33,794 nucleotides of DNA, taken from assembly GCA_016935315.1 (NCBI GenBank), contig JAFGRD010000086.1:1-33794 (forward strand), written 5' to 3'. Within the stretch, counting starts at the first letter, position 1, and every line of letters starts with the position of its first letter. Positions 29,482 through 33,722 of the stretch are shown here, piece by piece. Both the position numbers and the translations under genes were made by a program. The notes beneath the pieces were generated by a model, which had not been told where the DNA came from, did no database searches, and worked only from the letters and a program-made list of their open reading frames with translations. This DNA comes from Pirellulales bacterium (lineage in GTDB: Bacteria; Planctomycetota; Planctomycetia; Pirellulales; Thermoguttaceae).

Positions 29482-29633
29482 GGGCCGAAGGCGAGAACAC
29501 CGGCGACCAGGAATCGGGGTGAAGGCGGTTGGCGTGTTGCCATCGCGGGTCGCCGCGCCCATACTGGTATTGGGTTTGCCTACTTGCTGTGCGAATCGCC
29601 TTCCTGCCGGGTCTAGTGCGACCCACGAACGCC

Positions 29634-31211
29634 ATGAGCGACGCAACCGACAAGCCGACCAAGACCACCCCTCGGGTCGATCTCTCCGGAAGACATTTCG
29701 GAGATTTCCGCCTGCTGCGACGGTTGGGCCGTGGGGCCATGGCCGACGTGTATCTGGCCGAGCAGAGCGGGTTGCGGCGGCGGGTCGCCGTGAAGATCCT
29801 CCGGCCCGAGTTGGCCAACGACCAAACCTACTTGAAGCGGTTTGAAATCGAGGCCCAGGCGGCCGCTTCCTTGGTCCACGCCAATATCGTGCAGATCTAC
29901 GAAGTGGGATACCTCGAAGGCCTGCGGTTCATTGTCCAAGAGTACGTGCAGGGTCAGAACCTTCAGGATTGGGTCACCAGACACGGTCCCCCCGATTTGC
30001 CCCATGCGCTGTCGATCATGCGTCAAGGTGCCGCCGCACTGGCCAAAGCGGCCGAGCAGGGCGTGGTCCATCGGGACATCAAGCCCGAAAACATCCTGCT
30101 TACGCAAACCGGCGAAGTGAAAGTAGCCGATTTCGGGTTGGCCCGAGTCGCCCGTGAAGGCGAGGCGGTCGATTTGACCCAGGTCGGCGTGACGCTGGGC
30201 ACACCCTTGTACATGAGCCCCGAACAGGTCGAAGGCAAGCCCCTGGACCCCCGCAGCGACATCTATTCGTTCGGCGTGACTTGCTATCAGATGTTGGCCG
30301 GTACCCCGCCGTTTAGCAGCGAGACGGCCCTCGGCGTGGCGGTCCAGCACCTAAACAGACAGCCCGAGGTCTTGGAGAACCTCCGACCGGACCTGCCGCC
30401 CGCCTTGTGCCGAATAGTCCACAAGATGCTGGCCAAGCCCCCCGAAAAGCGTTTCCAATCGGCCCGGGATCTGCTCCGGGAGTTGCGGCGACTGCATCTG
30501 GAACACTTCGGGGACGATTGGCCCGAAGAGCTGCCGGGCTGGGAGACAACTGGGGTCGAGCTGCCCGCCGATTCGCGGGCGGCCACGACCCAACATCTCG
30601 GTGCGTTGATGAAGACCATGGCACTGCAGAGGCCGTCCCGCCGCACGCGATGGGCCCTTTGGGGAGGCGCGGCCGGCTCGTTTCTGCTGGGGGGCGTGTT
30701 CGCCTGGTTTGCCGCCGCGGAGCCTTCTCTGCTGGCGGGCGCCAAGGCCCCGCCGCCCAAAATCCCGCGGCAGGAATCCGCGCTGCAGCAGTATCTGGAC
30801 GCTAGCCGGATTGGCACCGAAGAGGCCTGGCAGTGTGTGCTCGACTACTTCCCGGACAAGCAGTATTTCACCCGCCGCGCAAAGCAGCAGTTGGCCCGCA
30901 TCCATCTCCGCGAGGGCGACTACGACCAGGCGCTGATCCTATTCAATGGTTTCGCCGACCCCGGCGAGCCGGACGTGGGGCTGCGCGCGTTTGGACTGGC
31001 CGGGAAATGCGGGGTGCTGACGCTGCTGGGTAAGTACGGCGAGTCGGCCCTGGTCCTCGACGAACTCTGGCCAATCCGTTCCGAGCTGCGCGACGAGCAG
31101 ATGCGGAAGTTGCTCGACTCCGTGGTCAAGACGAACCAGTCGAACCTGGGTGCCCATTCAACCCGCCAATGGGATGAGTGGCTTGCCGAGAAATTCCCGG
31201 AGGATGGTTGA
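29634..31211 (+). CDS. Membrane-anchored Ser/Thr protein kinase (PknB-like) with a C-terminal repeat region
   Basis: 525 residues from ATG 29634; in-frame upstream codons to 29529 add a non-conserved stretch and were left out. The Hanks-type kinase domain spans about 20-290: glycine loop LGRGAMADVYLAE, catalytic Lys in VAVKIL (about 53), HRDIKPEN (146-153), DFGLA (166-170), the activation segment GTPLYMSPEQV and SDIYSFGVTCYQMLAG. All catalytic residues are present. A TM helix lies at about 341-362 (LWGGAAGSFLLGGVFAWFA), and the outer part has TPR-like helices (QQLARIHLREGDYDQALILF). Such kinases phosphorylate regulators in response to envelope signals. No cognate phosphatase is nearby; the divergent transglutaminase-like protein is a possible partner. 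Confidence 0.93.
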   Translation: MSDATDKPTKTTPRVDLSGRHFGDFRLLRRLGRGAMADVYLAEQSGLRRRVAVKILRPELANDQTYLKRFEIEAQAAASLVHANIVQIYEVGYLEGLRFIVQEYVQGQNLQDWVTRHGPPDLPHALSIMRQGAAALAKAAEQGVVHRDIKPENILLTQTGEVKVADFGLARVAREGEAVDLTQVGVTLGTPLYMSPEQVEGKPLDPRSDIYSFGVTCYQMLAGTPPFSSETALGVAVQHLNRQPEVLENLRPDLPPALCRIVHKMLAKPPEKRFQSARDLLRELRRLHLEHFGDDWPEELPGWETTGVELPADSRAATTQHLGALMKTMALQRPSRRTRWALWGGAAGSFLLGGVFAWFAAAEPSLLAGAKAPPPKIPRQESALQQYLDASRIGTEEAWQCVLDYFPDKQYFTRRAKQQLARIHLREGDYDQALILFNGFADPGEPDVGLRAFGLAGKCGVLTLLGKYGESALVLDELWPIRSELRDEQMRKLLDSVVKTNQSNLGAHSTRQWDEWLAEKFPEDG

Positions 31212-31237: not shown

Positions 31238-32725
31238 TTAAGTGAAGTGGCGACCGACGTCGATAGGAGCCGTTGAGCTTTGCCCCCTTCGTCTAGTGGC
31301 CCAGGACATCGGATTCTCAGTCCGAAGACAGGGGTTCGACTCCCCTAGGGGGTACTGGTGTAACTCCACGGGGTTACACTCAGTCTTACTGGATCGCTCT
31401 AAGCCCTTGTCAACAAGGGCTTTCTGAGTTTCTTGGGACTCAGTGGGATTCGGTAAGGCAGGGTAGCGCGCCGGGTTTTGCGCCGCCTTTTCGTCTTCTC
31501 GCGCGCCGGATTTTGCGCCGCCCGGCCGGTGGTCACGGGTATCATCGCGACCGGGGTGCGTGCGATCGGTTGGCTCCTCACGGTGCGCGGCAGCGTTGCC
31601 CGGGGTGGGTGCGTCTGCCGGCTTCCCATCCACCCCGATCGCCTTTTGGAAATGGTCCTCGGTCACCTGGCGGTAGTGCCGGTTGGCGATGGCTTCGCTG
31701 TGGCCGAACCACGCCTCGCAGACGTGGCCGGGGAACTTGTCCGCCGCGTCGGTGACCGCCGAGGCCCGCATGTTCACCCACGGCTTCTCCCAAAGCTCCA
31801 CCCCGGCCCGGGCAGCCAGCTTGCCGAGCCAGGTTCGGCGATTGCTCTTCGGGGTGATGTTCGGAAATATCCGGTCCTTGCCCTCCGGGGCCGCTACCCA
31901 CGCTTCACGGAGAAACGGTGCCAGTTCTGGAAAGATGGGCACGATCCGCGTACCCTTGCCATACCGCTCGTTCTTGGGGGCGTGGACGATAAACCGGTCC
32001 CGCTCCCAGTTCACCTCCGACCAGAGCAGGCCGACCAACTCGGACGGAATCCGTAAGCCGGCATACCGCGCCAGTGCGACGATGAGTCGCTGCAATGGGC
32101 TGCGGCACTCGTCGAGCAAGAGCTGTGTGTTTTCCAGGGTGACATAGTGCTGTCGGTCCGGATTGACTTGCGCCGGAGTCGCGATGCCGGCAAACGGGTT
32201 TTCCGATACGAGTTTCCGCCGACTTGCAACCCGAAAGAACTGCCTGGCCCGCTTGACTTCCCGCGATACGGTCGATTCGCTCAGTTCCTGATTGACCATC
32301 CATTGCCGAAACCGGTCGGCCTCTCCCGGCGTTACGTCGCGTAGGTCCATTTCCTCGCCGAAGAACTCGATCAGGTGGTCGATCGGCGATTGCCAATTTC
32401 GGCGGGTGTTTGGCTTCAAGTCCTTTCGCTCGTCAAGAATCGACCGCAAGAACGATCCCAACCTGGCCACGCCGCGCCGCTCGAACAGCCCGGTGTCAGC
32501 CAGTTTGTTGTGCATGTCATCAGGGAGGCTCGCCACCCAAGCTGTCGTATCCGGATCGAGCGGCTGGCAGGCGATGCGAGCCGACACGATGGCCTCAACC
32601 CGCGATCGAATCAACCCAGCCGCCTTCTTGCTGATCTTTCCAAGACGTATCGTTCGCCGCCGACCATCCGGGGCCTTGAAAATCAACCTTCGTCGTCCAT
32701 TCGGATCGTTTGCAATGGAGGCCAT
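31238..32725 (-). CDS. Tyrosine recombinase (phage-type integrase), frame running antisense through tRNA-Glu
   Basis: 495 residues from ATG 32725. The N-terminal part holds an SAM-like core-binding domain (residues about 85-175). Catalytic residues: Arg225 in RYAGLRIPSEL, Lys in APKNERYGKGTRI (about 251-257), Arg320 in PWVNMRAS, His342 in WFGHSEAIANRHY and Tyr351 as nucleophile. The canonical His of the HxxR box is Val here; from memory, planctomycete integrases often vary at this box. Conserved sequence ends near 366. The remaining 130 residues are charged and low in complexity, and residues about 458-482 are simply the antisense translation of the tRNA gene. This is the first gene of an element inserted at that tRNA. 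The start lies 16 bases after the XRE gene stop, so they may be co-transcribed. Confidence 0.92.
   Translation of the reverse strand: MASIANDPNGRRRLIFKAPDGRRRTIRLGKISKKAAGLIRSRVEAIVSARIACQPLDPDTTAWVASLPDDMHNKLADTGLFERRGVARLGSFLRSILDERKDLKPNTRRNWQSPIDHLIEFFGEEMDLRDVTPGEADRFRQWMVNQELSESTVSREVKRARQFFRVASRRKLVSENPFAGIATPAQVNPDRQHYVTLENTQLLLDECRSPLQRLIVALARYAGLRIPSELVGLLWSEVNWERDRFIVHAPKNERYGKGTRIVPIFPELAPFLREAWVAAPEGKDRIFPNITPKSNRRTWLGKLAARAGVELWEKPWVNMRASAVTDAADKFPGHVCEAWFGHSEAIANRHYRQVTEDHFQKAIGVDGKPADAPTPGNAAAHREEPTDRTHPGRDDTRDHRPGGAKSGAREDEKAAQNPARYPALPNPTESQETQKALVDKGLERSSKTECNPVELHQYPLGESNPCLRTENPMSWATRRRGQSSTAPIDVGRHFT
31282..31354 (+). tRNA. tRNA-Glu (anticodon CTC)
   Basis: A full cloverleaf can be drawn. 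The acceptor stem is GCCCCCT (31282-31288) with AGGGGGT (31347-31353) and discriminator A31354; the first pair is G-U. The anticodon stem TCGGA/TCCGA encloses the loop TTCTCAG, so the anticodon is CTC (reads GAG). The T arm is AGGGG-TTCGACT-CCCCT, and the D arm begins GTCTAGTGGCC. CCA is not encoded. It lies 70 bases after the kinase gene. The minus-strand integrase frame covers it completely. Confidence 0.95.
31358..31379. repeat. Inverted repeat with 8-base spacer just after the tRNA, candidate recombinase core site
   Basis: GTGTAAC (31358-31364) and GTTACAC (31373-31379) are perfect inverted arms around TCCACGGG. The geometry (7-bp arms, 8-bp centre) matches core sites of tyrosine recombinases. 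It starts four bases after the tRNA discriminator base. It could instead be a minor hairpin in the tRNA trailer. Confidence 0.45.
31401..31426 (+). terminator. Rho-independent-like terminator downstream of tRNA-Glu
   Basis: AAGCCCTTGT (31401-31410) and ACAAGGGCTT (31413-31422) are perfect 10-bp arms around CA, followed by TTCTGAGTTTCTT. It ends 68 bases past the tRNA and would stop plus-strand transcription before it enters the antisense of int. It lies within the 3' part of the integrase frame. Confidence 0.65.
31466..31522. repeat. Direct repeat of 22 bp with one mismatch inside the integrase 3' extension
   Basis: 31466-31487 and 31501-31522 share GCGCGCCGG(G/A)TTTTGCGCCGCC (22 bases, one difference), with 13 bases between the copies. 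They lie in the non-conserved tail of the integrase frame, about 110-170 bases from the tRNA end. Arm-type recombinase sites often sit at such distances from the core, but slippage in low-complexity coding DNA is an alternative. Confidence 0.7.
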
Positions 32726-33407: not shown

Positions 33408-33722
33408 TCAACCCGCCAGCACTGCATCGTCTGGCACAAGCGGCCGGCAGTTGTCGATAGCGCGGCGGATCAGGAGCGCGACGACGCGGGCGTCCTCTAC
33501 GGCCGTGTGGGCAACCTCGCCGGGGATGTCGGCTCGTTCCATGCAGGTCTTTGTGTCAGGCAGTTCGACGCCATCGGTCTCCGGCTGCCAGTACAGAGCG
33601 GCCGGGTCCAGGATGCGGTGGTGGACCTGGATGTGCTTGTCCCAACTGGTGATTTTGCTCAGGAAACGAGCGTCGAAGCTGGCGTAGTTCTTGCCGGCCA
33701 CCACGGAGGGCAATGGGGTCAA
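33408..33722 (-). CDS. 3'-5' exonuclease (DEDDh/DnaQ type) fragment lacking the first catalytic motif
   Basis: 104 residues; the only start is a TTG at 33722 with no ribosome-binding site. The family match begins at once with motif II (VVAGKNYASFDARFL) and includes motif III, EVAHTAVEDARVVALLIRR, with the H-x4-D pair. Motif I (the DxE that binds metal) should lie about 60-80 residues before motif II, but an in-frame stop is only about 45 bases upstream of the TTG. The N-terminus is therefore lost or in another frame past the window. An imperfect inverted repeat begins right at the break (33715). Probably a pseudogene or an element-disrupted gene; functional activity is unlikely. Confidence 0.6.
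   Translation of the reverse strand: MTPLPSVVAGKNYASFDARFLSKITSWDKHIQVHHRILDPAALYWQPETDGVELPDTKTCMERADIPGEVAHTAVEDARVVALLIRRAIDNCRPLVPDDAVLAG

Follow-up and report, generated by a model that had tools for sequence, protein, structure and literature searches.

In a large natural family of planctomycete tyrosine-recombinase integrases, the integrase gene (int) is in our judgment probably built around the element's own attP, such that integration severs a C-terminal domain of the protein, host DNA ends the gene, and the recombination state sets the form of the enzyme. The layout, the continuity of the reading frame, the conservation of the domain and the existence of natural unsplit genes were established computationally among the family members described below.

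The window, 33,794 nt in length, is the whole of one contig (G000:C128) in an assembly of 172 contigs and 7.1 Mb, and its features are collected in Table 1. Its integrase matches Pfam Phage_int_SAM_5 above the cut-off (E 7.6e-12) and the PHROG 1 integrase (E 1.7e-37), with a match to Pfam Phage_integrase (E 1.1e-5, 25.7 bits) that lies slightly under the cut-off of 27.1. R, H, and Y columns are invariant in the family alignment, window included (R228, R325, H355, and Y356 of the first row among them), and we take these columns to be the Arg/His/Arg/His/Tyr active site of tyrosine recombinases. As an earlier note on this DNA had described, the integrase frame runs antisense through the entire tRNA-Glu gene and stays open throughout; the tRNA bases supply residues 457-482 (about 458-482 in that note). 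The integrase stop codon (31238-31240) lies 5′ of the tRNA gene, and the frame takes in 41-44 nt of host flank as well. Three close relatives of the window integrase (L042, L056, and L347) are frameshifted or decayed.

Table 1. Features of the window around the integrase gene and its tRNA target
Feature	Coordinates	Strand	Basis or detail
Tyrosine-recombinase integrase ORF, integrated state	31238..32725	-	495 aa, ATG start
Residues 1-362: N-terminal, SAM-like and catalytic domains; end just past the HYR catalytic-tyrosine region	31640..32725	-	Alignment
Residues 363-456: coding tail of low complexity that shares its DNA with the P arm of the attachment site	31356..31639	-	dN/dS
tRNA-Glu(CTC), integration target	31282..31355	+	ARAGORN
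Predicted attL core, 22 bp, equal to the tRNA-Glu 3′ end up to the T loop	31334..31355	.	Encodes residues 457-464
Residues 465-495 and stop: predicted host-encoded (remaining antisense tRNA and 5′ flank)	31238..31333	-	
First copy of the arm-type direct repeat, a proposed arm-binding site for the integrase	31501..31522	-	Spaced 35 bp from the second copy
Second copy of the arm-type direct repeat, likewise a proposed arm-binding site	31466..31487	-	Repeat motif
Perfect 10-bp inverted repeat (31401-31410 / 31413-31422), 3′ of tRNA-Glu, within the integrase tail	31401..31422	+	
HTH_17 protein beside the integrase, 121 aa	33046..33411	-	Pfam HTH_17 E 2.3e-9
Serine/threonine protein kinase gene, host flank upstream of the tRNA	29529..31211	+	Pfam Pkinase E 3.4e-50

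The predicted 22-bp core of the window is identical to the 22-mer core between attL and attR of a relative (L095), and the sequences of the window and of its nearest intact relative (L009) are unrelated once past the tRNA. The inverted repeat just 3′ of the tRNA is possibly a tRNA terminator supplied by the element, or else part of the attachment site. The HTH_17 protein is a candidate for the element's excisionase. Close to the end of the contig, a 104-aa frame (33408-33722) has the look of an exonuclease fragment, although it gave no Pfam match.

Reading of the integrase into its target is a property of the whole family. Integrase homologues occur at E <= 1e-20 in 97 of 147 related genomes. 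Our survey took 29 plus 60 loci from the homologue search, 7 of a further 57 loci (those with a catalytic-core match), and the window, giving 97 rows; the lower-scoring matches listed by the homologue search were left out, and removal of L038, which has the same sequence as L009, left 96 loci. Of these, 82 have a convergent tRNA or tmRNA gene, nine have none that we found, three run off the contig end, and two have an incomplete catalytic end. The integrase frame enters the tRNA or tmRNA in 79 of the 82 sampled members with such a gene, and the targets read into are 74 tRNAs of 11 types and 5 tmRNAs. The stop codon falls inside the tRNA or tmRNA in 70 of the 82, after passage of the whole gene in 9, and before it in 3. 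Counted for tRNAs only over the 97 rows, 65 stop within the antisense tRNA, 10 cross it fully, and 3 end before it. The three exceptions (L036, L105, and L122), in which the stop comes 43-159 nt ahead of the tRNA, may represent a variant that abandoned the shared-frame design.

Between the aligned catalytic end (residue 362) and the tRNA 3′ end, 74 of 77 members have no stop in the real frame, as compared with 21 and 17 of 77 in the other two frames; of base shuffles, 11.6% are open. An early stop near residue 370, which the earlier note had named as a possible end of the mature protein, was therefore rejected. Passage through the whole tRNA, by contrast with entry into it, is incidental and a minority outcome in the family: other tRNA-Glu members that use the window's frame (L120 and L144) stop inside the tRNA, and the window's full crossing is a side effect of its frame and of the particular tRNA sequence.

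What the integrated gene acquires from the host is mostly short. The stop lies past the 22-nt core, taken as the first 22 nt from the tRNA 3′ end, in 78 of the 79 members, at a median position of 27 nt past it, and the host-encoded peptide, mostly a few residues, differs by tRNA and by frame. The core is entered in three frames across the family (56, 15, and 5 of 79, with 3 lacking the motif). These data bear on the idea, which goes back to the earlier note, that the host-encoded antisense-tRNA tail, through its length or as a degradation signal, controls the integrated enzyme. A host-encoded end in nearly every member is what that idea calls for; yet a peptide signal shared by the family is unlikely, because the end varies with tRNA and frame and seldom amounts to more than a few residues, and the use of three frames ruled out the antisense-tRNA tail peptide as a conserved function. 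The conserved part of the protein is instead the part that is lost on integration, as described next, and we regard control by the tail as very improbable.

In 50 members, we looked on the integrase side for a further occurrence of the tRNA 3′ end. A copy of at least 15 bp was found in 22, and for these the circle was joined in silico; the other 28 had no usable repeat within the DNA examined. Twenty of the 22 have cores of 18-24 bp, and the repeat mostly ends at the T loop (...TCGAAC). The remaining two, L137 (G014:C272) and L136 (G096:C1), have repeats of 61 and 63 bp, respectively, that extend over the last part of the integrase tail, as would be seen with another copy of the element close by. 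In all 22 cases the stop of the integrated form lies 11-92 nt beyond the repeat, and therefore it is host DNA that gives the stop codon. The integrated and circular forms end at different stops in 22 of 22 reconstructions, and the circular form is the longer in 21. Thus, dependence of the gene's 3′ end on integration, which the earlier note had proposed for the window, is supported for the family, with an identical 3′ end in none of the circles, even though the crossing of an entire tRNA that had suggested it is incidental.

Continuing past the core, 17 of the 22 circles encode a conserved C-terminal domain in frame (leave-one-out profile, E<1e-3), whereas the other two frames encode it in 0 of 22. 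The domain is in the matching frame whichever core frame is used, for example in L120, which has the window's frame in tRNA-Glu. Of the five circles without the domain at this threshold, L010 is marginal (E 0.0015) and L019, L132, L126, and L136 clearly lack it; two alternative repeats were tried for L132, and the domain was reached with neither. In L015 and L120, the second repeat sits at the end of another, partial integrase, and these are therefore natural junctions; in the L015 case, the open frame (L323) is 556 aa, with a start unlike that of an integrase. Where the earlier note had placed weight on the host-encoded tail, it was right about the origin of that tail, but the important part is the domain that the integrated protein lacks.

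The severed domain has about 30-35 residues, with a Trp invariant in 53 of 53 aligned sequences, a figure partly ensured by profile selection; 17 of the 53 overlap training rows of the profile. Within unsplit proteins, the domain region had no match in Pfam or NCBIfam (four scanned) or among PHROGs (three scanned), and one isolated domain peptide had no match in Pfam. In an AlphaFold2 model of an unsplit relative (L245), residues 377-461 are disordered (pLDDT < 50), and the helices that follow (463-472 and 477-492) form a predicted two-helix hairpin. A fold search with the whole L245 model returned the integrase fold only, matching the Tn1549 and lambda integrases. The helix part appears to be constrained at the protein level: pN is below pS in 1322 of 1378 sequence pairs, as compared with 899 and 178 in the shifted frames (the pairs are not independent), and in 42 of 42 closer pairs.

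The domain also occurs apart from any integrase, as expected if it is left at the far end of an integrated element. With a T-arm pattern that was written after viewing the sequences, the antisense T-arm motif was found at most 260 nt upstream of the domain in 19 of 29 such loci, training loci excluded, as compared with 2 for the reverse-strand control and 5 for the downstream control. Over all 40 domain-only loci, 10 of which contain a training row, the motif was found in 26 (controls 2 and 5). The domain is present in at least 67 of 146 genomes of the order (E <= 1e-8) and at least 19 of 294 genomes of the phylum (E <= 1e-9); these counts are lower bounds obtained with unequal E limits from a scored part of the candidates.

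Unsplit genes exist in nature. On viral contigs, 8 of 64 related-integrase loci (6 of them distinct) hold a single uninterrupted frame in which the catalytic domain is followed by a core-like stretch, where no tRNA is present, and then by the two-helix domain. In 4 of the 6 distinct genes the 22-mer of that stretch differs from a known tRNA 3′ end at 1-3 positions, as compared with 7-8 for control segments; the other two (L248 and L257) have no core near any tRNA 3′ end in the family set. Neighbors of L248 match exonuclease PHROGs, and those of L256 gave no match. Unsplit genes would arise from two adjacent elements as well as from a circle. Also on viral contigs, L273, L276, L279, and L289-L292 end about 11 residues or less past the aligned catalytic end, with neither tail nor domain. 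A scan of viral contigs with the window integrase alone retrieved no relative, and searches of phage and plasmid collections retrieved 9 and 1 remote records, respectively, none covering 80% of the query.

The natural unsplit genes, together with the frame specificity in the circles (17 of 22 against none in either other frame), speak against the domain beside attR being a separate small gene whose in-frame position after the core is coincidental. That account takes its appeal from the integrated state, in which the domain does sit alone next to attR, and we find it hardly credible.

Searches for the window element's own attR covered its assembly and the genomes of its closest relatives. The 26-bp tRNA 3′ end has no second copy in the assembly at up to three mismatches, and a 171-bp query gave no match there longer than 18 bp. 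A domain search of the same assembly gave three strong matches, none of them this element's attR: a relic of a fused, unsplit tail (L235, G000:C160), an isolated domain preceded by a different tRNA-like core, which represents attR of another element (L236, G000:C19), and a domain match at which no core was seen (L237, G000:C23). The genome of the closest relative (G005) and those of four other close relatives contain domain matches, none beside the tRNA-Glu core. A relic of the window's lineage in genome G035 (L347) joins core-like sequence to the domain, with a tail 58% identical to that of the window over 48 residues; because it is decayed and its core is one base longer than the window's, it does not fix the frame of the window. 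From the relatives we infer that the window's element behaves as they do, its circular 3′ end included.

The DNA of the linker between catalytic and C-terminal domains appears to be attP itself. With a consensus for the arm-type repeat, GGCGCARAAYCCGGCGCA (at most three mismatches, and likewise written after viewing the sequences), we found that 57 of 77 loci carry the repeat in the 330 nt preceding the tRNA end, with all 81 sites on one strand, as compared with 0 of 77 control segments from the coding region. Past the core it recurs in 37 of 53 sequences, as compared with 0 of 53 controls, and all 38 of these sites are again on one strand; its distance from the T motif, measurable in 31 cases, is 54 nt in 21 and 66 nt in 5 more. 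By analogy with lambda Int, we would expect the arm repeats to be bound by the N-terminal beta-sheet of the integrase. Taken together, the sequence data place attP within int, over a predicted disordered linker that carries arm-type repeats, with integration predicted to cut off the domain; the stretch of L245 that matches window residues 363-456 falls in the part of its model predicted to be disordered (377-461).

Comparison of the window with L009 separates the parts of the protein by constraint: dN/dS is 0.04 over residues 150-362 and 0.74 in residues 363-456, and in residues 410-457 dS is only 0.14, with a dN/dS of 1.68 on few sites. The low dS in this last stretch suggests constraint at the DNA level, and it speaks in favor of a passive overlap, in which attP and the 3′ end of int adjoin or overlap to save space and the post-catalytic residues are a by-product of DNA constraint, without effect. 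The repeat itself fits such an overlap, since across the family its DNA spells GAESGA or AQNPAQ depending on the frame, and these peptides may simply be DNA motifs. So does the fact that many viral-contig relatives, some of them integrated at a tRNA or tmRNA, end about 30 residues or less after the catalytic domain. What makes a purely passive overlap unlikely, in our estimation, lies on the other side of the core: the helix part past the arm repeat is conserved as protein, is predicted to form an ordered hairpin, and is found in the matching frame for each core frame.

We therefore favor a gene organized around its attP, with the following course of events. In the circular or free phage form, a single frame would encode the N-terminal and catalytic domains, the linker, and the two-helix C-terminal domain, the linker DNA being attP, with arm-type repeats, an antisense tRNA-3′-end core, and one further arm-type repeat. 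Recombination of the core with the host tRNA or tmRNA 3′ end would split int. The catalytic part would retain its start and promoter and read into the regenerated tRNA, where host DNA would add a short end and a stop, and the C-terminal domain would be left at the other end of the element without an enzyme. Excision would rebuild the long int. The window's long passage through tRNA-Glu would then be an integrated form whose frame meets no stop in the tRNA.

A gene split by its own attP recalls the SSV-type integrases (PMC8371274), and integration might likewise be suicidal here, destroying the enzyme and making excision depend on an intact copy from elsewhere. In this family, however, all recombinase Pfam domains and the catalytic-tyrosine region stay on the promoter-bearing side of the split, and destruction of the enzyme seems quite improbable to us. 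In our preferred reading of a gene organized around attP, integration would be the task of the long protein, and an integrated form deprived of the C-terminal domain may, by analogy with Mx8, integrate less or have altered activity. With help from the HTH protein, the short form may still excise, because it keeps the catalytic domains. A more specific extension, that the gene architecture is itself a control of directionality in which a circle-only C-terminal module gives competence for integration, integration removes it, and the host tRNA supplies the terminus of the off state, we advance tentatively, as a possibility that falls somewhat short of even.

Phage integrases normally use a separate excisionase or another factor to choose between insertion and exit. 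Here int itself may hold that choice, and would do so across a large natural family instead of in one phage; the family thereby offers a ready test set for the effect of a C-terminal module on a tyrosine integrase. The layout also accounts for odd ends of many planctomycete integrases, such as PPRGVEP and GESNPCL, which are antisense tRNA, and it should aid the mapping of element ends, where an orphan domain behind an antisense tRNA 3′ end marks attR. If the tentative extension to directionality is true, a whole bacterial lineage of mobile elements records its recombination state in the integrase protein and hides attP in the codons of a disordered linker.

The closest known system is the Myxococcus phage Mx8, in which attP likewise lies inside a tyrosine-integrase gene. 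According to PMC4701971, Mx8 Int loses a 112-residue C-terminus on integration, gains 13 residues in its place and becomes less active; PMC6070905 adds that integration does not inactivate Int and works, through this change, as a switch. Searching the Mx8 record, we find the antisense T-arm motif in int at codon 417 (of 533), which leaves 117 residues to the end, near the published 112, and Mx8 therefore serves as a positive control for the motif search. As in Mx8, the core of the planctomycete genes lies within an uninterrupted int frame (for the window, by extension from its relatives), and the integrated form is predicted to be shorter, with a host-encoded C-terminus and complete catalytic domains. 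The two are nonetheless distinct: Mx8 Int is 22% identical to the family over 209 columns (E 0.003) and scores 1.9 bits with the family profile, it lacks the two-helix domain (1.1 bits), and the planctomycete family lacks the Mx8 C-terminal region. Moreover, Mx8 is a single described case, whereas the planctomycete family comprises dozens of elements at many tRNAs.

Among other systems, the archaeal SSV-type integrases, as described in PMC8371274, share an attP inside int, tRNA targets, and a gene split by integration; there the catalytic domain is parted from the start of the gene, while here the only loss is an accessory domain at the C terminus. The same review states that self-disrupting recombinases are exclusive to archaea, a statement that neither Mx8 nor the planctomycete family fits. 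Mycobacteriophage BPs also has attP inside a gene, and integration shortens the product by 33 residues and alters its behavior (PMC4557955); BPs differs in that the gene is a repressor and the lost end a degradation tag. Streptococcal rumA ICEs with serine integrases and IME_Spy2096_SNF2 carry the attachment site in the integrase gene and have a different C terminus in the excised form, but they use serine recombinases and protein-coding targets (PMC4701971 and PMC5357655). In the open-access PMC text that we searched, we found no description of the planctomycete integrase family or its domain. The principle is thus already known, with Mx8, the SSV-type integrases, and the BPs repressor as precedents, and what is new here is the conserved severed domain, the scale of the family, and the anatomy of attP.
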